DNA of 64,000 nt from Alkalicella caledoniensis (GTDB taxonomy: Bacteria > Bacillota > Proteinivoracia > Proteinivoracales > Proteinivoracaceae): NCBI RefSeq assembly GCF_014467015.1, contig NZ_CP058559.1, positions 1-64,000 on the forward strand. The letters are read 5' to 3'. The notes beneath the pieces are model-generated. The model ran no database searches, was not told where the DNA came from, and saw only the letters and a program-made list of their open reading frames with translations. Every line of letters starts with the position of its first letter. Within the stretch, counting starts at the first letter, position 1. Below are positions 4,516-54,650 of the stretch, one piece after another. A program made the position numbers and the translations under genes.

Positions 4516-4552
4516 TAAAAAAAAGCATACTCTATTGAGTACGCCCTAAGCT
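4516..4552 (-). terminator. Terminator (original terminator of the coiled-coil gene), first copy of a 24-bp direct repeat
   Basis: On the minus strand GCGTACTC-AATA-GAGTATGC forms a hairpin followed by eight T. The left half of this terminator (4529-4552) is duplicated at 4821-4844 right at the end of the coiled-coil gene, with a 268-bp element between the copies. Confidence 0.7.
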
Positions 4553-4820
4553 TGTAGACTAAGACAAAGTCATTGACCCTAGATGTGTATATTAAAAAGC
4601 AGTACAATTAATTCGAGGAGATAGACTTAAGAGCTGAATAGCTAAACGGAAGAAGGGGCGAGAAACAGGACGTTTCGAGAGCTCCACTGAGCCATGGACG
4701 GTGAATTGGAGCGGTACCCTTCTGGAGTTTAGATAGAAGCCTTAAGTCTCGACGACGAATTTTGTACAGCGTTTAATATGCGACATTCCTAAAAAATGAC
4801 TTTGTCATCAGTCTAAGACG
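4553..4820. mobile_element. 268-bp highly structured miniature element flanked by 24-bp direct repeats
   Basis: The element splits a terminator and is bounded by identical 24-bp direct repeats (4529-4552 and 4821-4844). Its ends are inverted repeats sharing GACAAAGTCATT. Moving inward, the two halves continue to pair: ATATTAAA, GTACAA, ATTCG and GACTTAAG on the left match their complements on the right. The whole element therefore folds as one long interrupted stem. The apical 110 bases contain further hairpins (GAAAC with GTTTC, GCTCCA with TGGAGC, AGAAGGG with CCCTTCT). No open frame is present. It resembles a MITE or a bcr1-like structured repeat in architecture, but I do not recognise the family. 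Confidence 0.6.
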
Positions 4821-4837
4821 ACTCTATTGAGTACGCC

Positions 4838-5173
4838 CTAAGCTCTTTTCTGCTTCATCAGGAAAATATCCTTCTCATTTTTAGTCTCTTTTGTAGTTAG
4901 AAAATCAATATCATCCTTCAAATCTTGAAAGCATACCTGAGTTTCCGTTCTAAATTCCACTAAGTCGGCAGTTTGCTTGTAAACAACATCCAATTTCCTA
5001 GCAATTCCTTCTTGACCTTGGTCCAGTTTGTCTAGTCTTTCCTCTAAGTTCACTTGACCTAGCTCTAGTTTGTCTAGCCTTTGCTCTAAGTTCACTTGAC
5101 CTTCCTTTAAAGACTCTACATCCTTCTTAATACCCCTCAGTTCATCAAGAATTAGATTTAACATTTTTTCCAT
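4838..5173 (-). CDS. Small coiled-coil protein of unknown function
   Basis: About 111 residues. The Met at 5173 is preferred because GGGAGAG precedes it; an in-frame upstream Met at 5227 lacks a site. The protein is one predicted coiled coil, with a repeated unit QVNLEQRLDKLELG, QVNLEERLDKLDQG and QEGIARKLD. Proteins with this pattern are common in Bacillus and Clostridium and are usually annotated only as hypothetical. No catalytic motif, signal or membrane segment is seen. The stop codon overlaps the second copy of the 24-bp repeat that flanks the miniature element. Confidence 0.65.
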   Translation of the reverse strand: MEKMLNLILDELRGIKKDVESLKEGQVNLEQRLDKLELGQVNLEERLDKLDQGQEGIARKLDVVYKQTADLVEFRTETQVCFQDLKDDIDFLTTKETKNEKDIFLMKQKRA

Positions 5174-5320
5174 AATAACTCTCCCATTGTTTATCGATAA
5201 TCTGAGATGACAATTTATATAAAACAATTTTTTGTTAATATTATTCTATCAAAACATACGTTCTGGGTCAATGCTAAACAACTATTTCAGACAGCTAAAA
5301 TTGATGTTCTCTAGAATCAT

Positions 5321-7828: not shown

Positions 7829-8198
7829 TTAACCTAAACTCTGTTCAAATCTCTCACGGGTTCTATGGGGAAGCTTTTCCCATAAGTAGTTAAAAACCTT
7901 ACGATTTACTGCCATACAAAAAGTTAACCACGCTACTGCCGCAAAATAGCCACCAATTATGTCTGATGCGAAATGTCTATCACGGATTACTTGACCTACT
8001 CCCACGAGGGTGATAGCTATAACTAAAAAAGTAATTAAAAAGCCTTTTAACTTTCTACTTTTCATTTCATGATAGATGGTATAAATTAACACACCGAAAA
8101 GTAACATAGCTTTTAATGCATGACCACTGGGAAAGCTATAGGATACTTGATCAGAAAACAATCCCCATATATTCATATAGAGGAGCTCACCTGGACGT
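7829..8198 (-). pseudogene. 3' half of a PAP2-family phosphatase gene disrupted by an IS1182-type element
   Basis: Reads RPGELLYMNIWGLFS into YSFPSGHALKAM (second motif of the PAP2 phosphatase signature, SGH) and RDRHFASDIIGG (third motif, H and D). The first motif, KLTIARER, is on the other side of the insertion sequence. Rejoining the halves at the duplicated ACGT gives KLTIARERPGELLY, the normal KxxxxxxRP motif, with the frame kept. The family dephosphorylates lipid phosphates such as undecaprenyl pyrophosphate or phosphatidate at the membrane. Several hydrophobic helices are visible. As it stands the product would be inactive. Confidence 0.85.
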
Positions 8199-9855
8199 CA
8201 GACTGTGTGGCTAATCTCTAAAAACTCAAGGATTAGCCGTAAATTTCCTGTCTTTTGGTGCAATATGACTTAAACATATAAAAATACAATGATAAAGTGG
8301 GTCTAAGAGCTACTAATATCCTTAGTAGTTCTTTCACTCCTATAATATTTATTACTCTTTTAAAATTATAGGCTAGCAAAACTAGGGCTGTCTCTGTAGT
8401 TACAGAATCCATCCCTCTTGTTAAAAAATACCCAGCATTCATTGTCCTTTTGATGGTTCCATAAGGATGCTCAACAATCATCTGCCTTTGTAGGTATTTG
8501 TCCATATTTGCTTCTGTTCTAGCATCTATAGTATCCAAAAAATCTTGGTTAGGTGACCGATTTATTATCCTGCCTTTGGCTGCAGTGGTGCATTTGCTTT
8601 TTGATTCACAGTTTTTACAGGCATCGTAGTTTCTATATTTTATTCTTTTTGGTTCTTTTGATTTGTGGTTTATTCTGCGTAATTCATGGCCCAAAGGACA
8701 AATATATAAGTCTTTTTCAGGCACATAAGTAAATTTATCTCCGTAGAAATCTTTGTCTCCTGTGGCGTTAGAATACGACTGTTTTGGCAAATAGACTGTT
8801 GTTTCGTTTCTCTCACATTTCATAAGGTCGTCTGCTTGGTAATAGCCTTTATCTGCTGCTACTTCAAGTTTCCTTTTTCCAAATATATCTTTAGCCTTTT
8901 CTGCAAGTGAATTTAGATTACCTTGATCTGCGGGATTGTTTGTAACATCATATGCCACTATAATACTATGCTTAGAGTCTACAGCTGTTTGTATGTTATA
9001 TGCTACAGTAACACCATTGTTTTTGTTGTCCATAAGCCTAGCATCTTCGTCAACTGTAGATACTTCATTACATTCGCTATCCTGTAGTTTTTTTTCCAAC
9101 TCTTCAAATTTAATTTTACGCTCCTTGAGTTTTTCAATTTTTTGCTGAATTTCTTCAGGTGTATACTTAAGTTTAGGTGAATCGTCTTTGTCACTGCTTT
9201 CTAACAAATCTAGATAGGAATTAACCTTATCTTCGATATATTGTTTGTGTCTTTGTATTTTTTTCTTTGAGAAATTATTCTTCTTTGAATTATTAGCTTG
9301 AATTTTAGTCCCATCTATTGCTATGAATTCCTCGCCTAATAGTTTGAGATCCTTACACAACTTAGTAAAATCCTTGAAAACTTGTTTTAGCTGAGTTTTA
9401 TTTTCTTTCCTGAAATCAGCTATTGTTTTAAAATCAGGTTTTAGTTTTTGTAATAGCCAAACCACTTCTATATTCCTGTGAGATTCTGTTTCTAGCTTTC
9501 TAGATGATCTTATGCCATTTACATACCCATATAGATATAACTTCAATAAAACAGAGGGATGATATCCTGGTGCACCTCTGCGGTGTTCCTTTGATTTAGT
9601 GAATGCACTCATATTGACCAGTTTTACGTATTCATCAATTACCCTAACGGGATTATCCTCACCTATGTAATCTTCTATGCAGTCAGGAAACATTGTTTTT
9701 TGCTTTCTATCTGTACCTTGTATAAATGACATTTAAAATCCCCTCTCCGATATTCTATAACTTAATTATACTACAGAAAAAGGGAAAAGTACTGTATTTA
9801 CAGTACTTTGGAGGCATTTTAGACATATATTATTGTTTAATTCTCACACAGTCTG
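8199..9855 (-). mobile_element. IS1182-family insertion sequence, 1657 bp, with 4-bp target duplication
   Basis: Both ends begin CAGACTGTGTG (11-bp perfect inverted repeat). ACGT is duplicated on each side (8195-8198 and 9856-9859). Removing the element and one ACGT restores the PAP2 reading frame, which fixes the boundaries to the base. It carries a single transposase gene on the minus strand. Confidence 0.93.
8233..9732 (-). CDS. IS1182-family transposase
   Basis: 499 residues with the N-terminal DUF772-type domain (GYHPSVLLKLYLYGY, then IADFRKEN) and a DDE-type catalytic part beginning EEFIAIDGTKIQANNSK. A predicted coiled segment follows, then DARLMDNKNNGVTVAYNIQ, ADKGYYQADDLMKC and a Cys-rich stretch (CPLGHELRR, CKNCESKSKC). 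The C-terminus holds EHPYGTIKRTMNAGYF, typical of the family. It appears intact and at full family length, so the element may still be active. It contributes nothing to the host pathway and simply interrupts the PAP2 gene. Confidence 0.93.
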   Translation of the reverse strand: MSFIQGTDRKQKTMFPDCIEDYIGEDNPVRVIDEYVKLVNMSAFTKSKEHRRGAPGYHPSVLLKLYLYGYVNGIRSSRKLETESHRNIEVVWLLQKLKPDFKTIADFRKENKTQLKQVFKDFTKLCKDLKLLGEEFIAIDGTKIQANNSKKNNFSKKKIQRHKQYIEDKVNSYLDLLESSDKDDSPKLKYTPEEIQQKIEKLKERKIKFEELEKKLQDSECNEVSTVDEDARLMDNKNNGVTVAYNIQTAVDSKHSIIVAYDVTNNPADQGNLNSLAEKAKDIFGKRKLEVAADKGYYQADDLMKCERNETTVYLPKQSYSNATGDKDFYGDKFTYVPEKDLYICPLGHELRRINHKSKEPKRIKYRNYDACKNCESKSKCTTAAKGRIINRSPNQDFLDTIDARTEANMDKYLQRQMIVEHPYGTIKRTMNAGYFLTRGMDSVTTETALVLLAYNFKRVINIIGVKELLRILVALRPTLSLYFYMFKSYCTKRQEIYG

Positions 9856-10188
9856 ACGTTCCCTTGCTATGGTAAGCTTCATGGCATAAGCTATGGCAAC
9901 TCCTCCACCTGCAGAGGTTGTTATCAAAAATGCATAATAATAAAGTTTCTTATATGCTAAAAAAGATATTGCTAAGCCTGTAAGAACAAAGCAAACTTTT
10001 GAGTCTGCTAAAAGAGTAAATGCTCTAACTATTGGAGTAAAGCCTTCTCTCCACCATGAATTAAACCATTTGTAAATAGCACCATCAAAAGCAATTAAAT
10101 CATAGTTTAGTACTATATAAGTTAAACCTAAAGTAAGTACCGTAAAAACACCAGAAAAACATAGTAGTATTCTTTCCTTTTTCTCCAT
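9856..10188 (-). pseudogene. 5' half of the disrupted PAP2-family phosphatase gene
   Basis: Starts at the ATG at 10188, where GGGGGAG lies eight bases upstream; an in-frame ATG at 10218 lacks a comparable site. The fragment encodes about three hydrophobic helices and ends at motif one, KLTIARER, where the insertion adds two foreign residues and a stop. The other half is at 7829-8198. Intact relatives are about 230 residues, matching the sum of the two parts. Confidence 0.85.
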
Positions 10189-10326
10189 TGCACTAGCTCC
10201 CCCTAAATCCATTGCCACATCATAAAGTAATTAAATCTGTGACTTTGTGTTAGATATTTTGTCTATAAGAACTTGACCATATTATACATTCTATAAAAAA
10301 AGTCGAATACCTTCATTAAATTACCC

Positions 10327-54529: not shown

Positions 54530-54590
54530 GTAGAGTAGGAAAGCGCCGCCTTATTGTATTTCTACAACAGGTTTGCGCAGACCCCTCCCC

Positions 54591-54624
54591 GAACCGTGCT
54601 TACACCTCTCGATGTACACGGCTC
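54591..54624 (-). ncRNA. Group II intron domain V
   Basis: 34-base hairpin GAGCCGTGTAC, GAGA tetraloop region, GTAAGCACGGTTC, with the AGC catalytic triad in its base. Confidence 0.75.
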
Positions 54625-54650
54625 TCCATTGTTACTCAATTATTCAAAAC

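Follow-up and report, generated by a model that had tools for sequence, protein, structure and literature searches.

At positions 4548–4815 on the plus strand of the window, the 64,000-nucleotide stretch of Alkalicella caledoniensis DNA analysed here, we have identified a 268 bp segment with terminal inverted repeats and without a long ORF, which has the character of a non-autonomous mobile element. Its left end, AAGCTTGTAGA... (4548–4574, plus strand), is the outer arm of a long stem and reads CAGCTTGTAGACAAA in other copies; its right end, ...GACTTTGTCATCAGTCTA (4795–4815, plus strand), reads ...CAGTCTG in other copies. The termini of the element are CAG...CTG inverted repeats, and its insertion sites are terminators. 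On both sides of the window element lies a copy of the same minus-strand hairpin. The left copy (4524–4547) forms an intrinsic terminator hairpin with a T run after it in the minus-strand reading (4547–4522 in the terminator scan), and the right copy (4816–4839) adjoins the minus-strand ORF 4838–5227. Alignment with sister copies gave a target duplication of 24 nt, with three mismatches between the two copies.

An earlier note on this DNA had pointed out direct repeats of 24 bp at 4529–4552 and 4821–4844, and these are identical as claimed. However, the left repeat, which the note took as pure flank, is flank only up to its last five bases; these belong to the element's own end and match the flank by accident. 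The size of 268 bp given there was correct, while the borders had to be moved to those stated above. The note also read the flanking repeat as one half of a terminator, but the left copy is a whole terminator hairpin with its T run. The observation itself was thus confirmed and its interpretation partly supported.

Folding of the 316-nt stretch that includes both repeats gave −113.1 kcal/mol on the plus strand (z −7.35; none of 100 shuffles was as good) and z −8.17 on the minus strand, so that the strong structure noted between the repeats is far from chance. The structured core (4613–4760, plus strand) is a relative of the TwoAYGGAY RNA (RF01731). At lax thresholds it matched the full model (positions 1–168) with 32.2 bits (E = 0.0024), below the gathering score of 43 bits, and no Rfam match was found inside the window element at gathering thresholds. 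The note had matched the segment to no riboswitch or intron class; its core does have kin in a catalogued RNA motif, although the window copy falls short of that family's gathering score. Core hairpin 1 (4662–4676, GAAAC-AGGAC-GTTTC) has a loop one base short of AYGGAY, and core hairpin 2 (4691–4702) has an exact AYGGAY loop (AUGGAC) with a C-G closing pair. The note had left a choice between a miniature mobile element and a large structured RNA. Each part of this proposal was sound, but the "or" was not, as the segment is both at once.

The search for further copies by BLASTN, which the note had suggested, found many in the window's own genome (G000) and in a related genus. In G000, 43 matching stretches were chained and, with other loci read, resolved into 32 places. 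In G002, a genome from a different genus of the family, there were 41 element places with about 77–81% identity to the window element. No copies were found by DNA match in the family's other three genomes. A search with the end sequences alone pointed to further places in G000; 11 of these were read, and an IS110 element is nested in one of them. In the locus L178 (500–2716), a copy of the 268 bp element is split by an IS110-family element (NF033542, 218 bits). The loci L070–L072 carry the IS1182 element IS-B (transposase 42% identical), whose L072 copy is nested in a copy of the 268 bp element.

Both ends of the element could be read by script in 65 of the 73 places in G000 and G002, and the other 8 had no clear ends. 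A full duplication of the target hairpin, 16–35 nt long (median 24), was found in 44 of these 65 copies. Its midpoint was at most 1 nt from the hairpin dyad in 42 of the 44, including 32 in which it coincided with the dyad; the remaining two, both in G000, are over-long duplications. For 41 of the 44 duplicated sequences, the folding was matched by no more than one of 100 dinucleotide shuffles. The left copy was preceded by a stretch with at least four A in eight bases in 36 cases, the right copy was followed by one with at least four T in eight in 34, and one or both of these runs were present in 41. The duplication test failed in 21 of the 65 copies, several of which show, by eye, hairpins with small indels or ends misplaced by the script. 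Duplication length correlated with hairpin length (Spearman 0.31, p = 0.04) by a fold-based measure of the hairpin feet, which is of little use because, in the empty site, the A run pairs with the T run; the dyad-centre test was used in its place. The suspicion that a duplication of 24 bp reflects unusual insertion was well founded, as its length follows the target and its centre is the hairpin dyad. As regards the empty sites that the note had proposed to look for, the duplicated hairpins imply that such sites existed.

Our analysis also revealed elements that code for a transposase and have near-identical ends. In G001, another genome of the family, contig-end IS fragments carry an IS1182-type transposase, have ends like those of the window element and lie beside hairpins. 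Among 398 sampled genomes of the phylum, 17 have relatives of this transposase. The ends of these autonomous partners are CAGACTGTCGACAAAG...TTTGTCTACAAGCTG and variants, and the five partner transposases tested scored 388–474 bits, over the NCBIfam cut-off for IS1182 (NF033551). A whole-hairpin duplication of 20–35 nt was found in 9 of 14 IS copies, with its midpoint on the dyad in eight and 0.5 nt off in one. Among the remaining five, no duplication was found in four and the left end was out of reach in one. In a plasmid collection, 328 records matched the hairpin-duplicating transposase, and six were examined for duplications. Five of them, from Acetoanaerobium, Sutcliffiella, Peribacillus, Cetobacterium and Enterococcus, had perfect hairpin duplications of 21–30 nt whose midpoint coincided exactly with the dyad, and the sixth, labelled Arthrobacter citreus, had no scored duplication. 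Duplication of the whole hairpin by this IS1182 clade is therefore well supported.

When five of these transposases were compared with those of IS-A, IS-B, IS-C and IS-E from the window's own genome, the five fell together in one supported clade that excluded the other four. The termini CAGACTGAAGACAAA of the G002 copies and CAGACTGTAGACAAA of the copies in G042, G128 and G257 are shared with the IS ends, CAGACTGT(A/C)GACAAA, while the first base and some end positions of the window copy differ from the shared terminal sequence. The element and the IS clade also agree in the kind of target and in the mode of duplication (42/44 against 9/14 and 5/6). On these shared ends and this shared duplication mode, the best reading is that the window element is linked to this clade. 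A search of G000 with the C-terminus of the G001 transposase did not reveal an intact enzyme of this kind (no match at E ≤ 1e-15), and the four IS1182 groups of G000 have other ends or other duplications. The only matching transposase found in G002 is truncated at a contig end.

Taken together, the segment is very probably a MITE-like non-autonomous element that is moved in trans by the DDE transposase of one IS1182 clade, via a cruciform, with duplication of the hairpin and with a core related to TwoAYGGAY. The terminator hairpin would form the cruciform that serves as substrate, and the transposase, acting in trans on the window element, would attack it at its two 5′ feet. Gap repair would then leave the whole hairpin on both sides of the element, with the duplication centred on the dyad. 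A varying length with a constant symmetry is the pattern expected from such an attack. Alternatively, the transposase may recognise palindromic DNA in its linear form, without a cruciform. With the cruciform route, the A run, hairpin and T run would be copied whole, and each flank would tend to keep a hairpin beside its own A or T run. The insertion should cost the host little for this reason, and the duplicated terminators presumably stay functional. Landing in terminators and copying them would amount to a low-harm strategy, which may serve low-impact insertion tools.

Targets of the IS1182 family are hairpins or palindromes, often terminators, according to PMC4923244 and PMC5678879, which also cite the IS review of Siguier and colleagues for palindromic targets. 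The element resembles this family, including IS1272 (NF033551), in its hairpin and terminator targets and in the DDE transposase of its clade partners. However, IS1272 loses its target hairpin, which is deleted or replaced without duplication (PMC5678879), and TnSha1 likewise loses it (PMC4923244), whereas here a hairpin stands on both sides of the element, so that the event is not a stem-loop replacement of the IS1272 type; moreover, no transposase is encoded in the window element. Duplication of a whole hairpin was drawn in 2017 as pathway b, a hypothetical outcome of cruciform attack (PMC5678879, Fig 13). As far as our searches reached, in the parts available of PMC4923244, PMC4333381, PMC11701678, PMC11661157, PMC2864571 and PMC5678879, this mode of insertion had been drawn as a possibility and its detailed documentation was not found. 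The copies in more than one phylum show the outcome drawn in the IS1272 paper (PMC5678879) and offer ready substrates for biochemistry. Where the target's hairpin dictates both the length and the centre of a duplication, this can be regarded as a fingerprint of structure-guided strand transfer. Like bacterial MITEs, the element is short and non-coding, has inverted-repeat ends and target duplications, and is present in many copies. It differs from them in duplicating a whole hairpin of variable length and in having a covarying structured core that is common to elements of unrelated families.

Two other origins of the element have to be weighed against transposition by this clade. The IS1182-family element IS-A (8199–9855; NF033551, 391.6 bits; ends CAGACTGTGTG) lies 3.4 kb from the element in the window, between ORFs 7829–8176 and 9844–10218, which resemble the halves of one interrupted gene. 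The element could be an internally deleted derivative of IS-A that IS-A moves, and CAGACTG is indeed common to the ends of IS-A and some ends of the element. Moreover, 13 of the 20 IS-A copies in the genome lie inside copies of the 268 bp element, all at the same ACGT in core hairpin 1. However, six of these are in one orientation and seven in the other, which means that the insertions are nested and IS-A is the guest. All 20 copies have 4 bp ACGT-like duplications, and the IS-A transposase is only about 21–26% identical to those of the hairpin-duplicating clade. IS-A was therefore rejected as the parent of the element, and such a descent is very improbable. Group IIC introns insert at terminators, and a retroelement-like mobile RNA that shared this preference and inserted by target-primed reverse transcription would combine a conserved structured RNA with terminator targets and long duplications. 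A group II intron (RF00029, 61.9 bits) is present elsewhere in the window, at 54530–54626 on the minus strand, and it is the sole intron match there. Apart from its terminator insertion, however, the element is unlike group IIC introns, as it has no intron domains and no Rfam intron match, its ends are inverted repeats and its target is duplicated. The same dyad-centred duplications are made by DDE-transposase elements with similar ends, and we consider a retroelement origin extremely improbable.

Since 2010, TwoAYGGAY has been an orphan among structured-RNA motifs, with no function assigned to it. RF01731 searches of the relatives gave 23 matches in G000, one of them over 43 bits, and 41 in G002, 14 of them over; one G002 copy scored 42.0 bits (E = 1.4e-5). 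A single copy was found in G004, also of the family (L248, 62.5 bits), with long inverted arms; no hairpin duplication was found at this locus, and the copy is perhaps decayed or resident. The covariation check that the note had asked for showed that the stems covary. For 22 of 43 clean copies, aligned with MAFFT, the RNAalifold structure had 68 pairs, 11 of them with two-sided changes and few broken, with some arm pairs under-counted owing to one badly placed gap; these changes represent few independent events, because the copies come from two genomes. The overall fold, a long stem with two apical hairpins, agrees among the window, G002 and G042 elements and is that of RF01731. Loop 1, however, lacks one base (AGGAC) in all copies that matched the pattern. 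The window core is therefore filed as a relative of TwoAYGGAY and not as a full member. It resembles the class in its match to the full model, its stem and apical hairpins and its AYGGAY loop 2, and differs in its low score, its short loop 1 and its location within a mobile element flanked by duplicated hairpins. No mention of mobility or hairpin duplication was found in the parts of the TwoAYGGAY literature covered.

RF01731 was found in at least 51 of the 398 genomes of the phylum, with up to six candidates scored per genome. By eye, only G185 and G383 have both this RNA and a transposase like that of G001, so their co-occurrence is not enriched. We examined 69 RF01731 loci by script, leaving out L266, which is a copy of the window element set. 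Clear hairpin duplications together with ends of the window element's kind were found in five of them. These TwoAYGGAY cores sit in elements of the type seen in the window and belong to three families other than the window's (L259 and L297 in G042, L246 and L277 in G128, L307 in G257); the left end of L246 is decayed. A few of the other loci look decayed by eye, and most have other ends, so that the link to mobility covers only part of RF01731. In G250 and G068, TwoAYGGAY cores lie in multicopy fold-back elements with other ends. At L276 and L281 they lie in a further multicopy fold-back element, whose ends are GAGTCACGGGGACGGTTCT(T/A)CTGACT. This suggests that mobile elements of more than one type carry TwoAYGGAY RNA.

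The orientation of the element relative to the terminated gene was determined at 70 of the 73 places in G000 and G002. It was antisense only in 28, sense only in 8 (p = 0.0012) and convergent in 18. Either oriented insertion or selection against the sense strand may account for this bias. GC skew cannot separate replication from transcription orientation, because the skew follows the gene strand. Host readthrough was rejected as the usual source of plus-strand RNA, given the antisense bias and the minus-strand ORFs that flank the window copy.

The association of a TwoAYGGAY-type RNA with these elements raises a testable question, namely what the transposon gains from carrying it. The element may be mobile as described while its core is no functional RNA, the arm pairing being kept for DNA folding in transposition or by hairpin-templated repair. 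The excess of antisense copies in both genomes fits such a core, as does the finding that no promoter-like site was detected inside the element. The RNA motif is, however, common to elements with other ends, and off-type pairs counted by eye were G-U in 17 cases and C-A in 8, which weakly favours a plus-strand RNA. We regard a core that acts as DNA only as quite possible, if doubtful. A rather unlikely alternative is that the RNA is a decoy that binds CsrA/RsmA and is spread by transposition. AYGGAY corresponds to the ANGGAN hexaloop of CsrA sites. CsrA was found in 49 of the 51 TwoAYGGAY genomes, compared with 285 of the 398 overall (Fisher odds ratio 11.5, p = 4e-6, ignoring relatedness and completeness); G189 and G240 had no CsrA match when the lists were compared by eye. 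CsrA binding has also been proposed for TwoAYGGAY (PMC4333381). Against a decoy stand the short loop 1 described above and the mostly antisense position of the element relative to host transcription. CsrA binding by the element RNA is to be taken as a lead only. It would be more speculative to suppose that TwoAYGGAY is largely cargo of mobile fold-back elements, that a hairpin-duplicating transposase clade which reads DNA four-way junctions spreads some of these elements, and that the cargo acts as a mobile RNA which titrates an RNA-binding protein of the host, for instance CsrA; we think this unlikely.

Our analysis also showed another IS1182 element, IS-C (L164–L168), which is 1698 bp long and present in five copies, with ends GAGGGCACTGAAAA and duplications of 8–9 bp. 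In four of the five copies, inspection by eye places the duplication at the apex of a hairpin that resembles a terminator, as in pathway c of PMC5678879.
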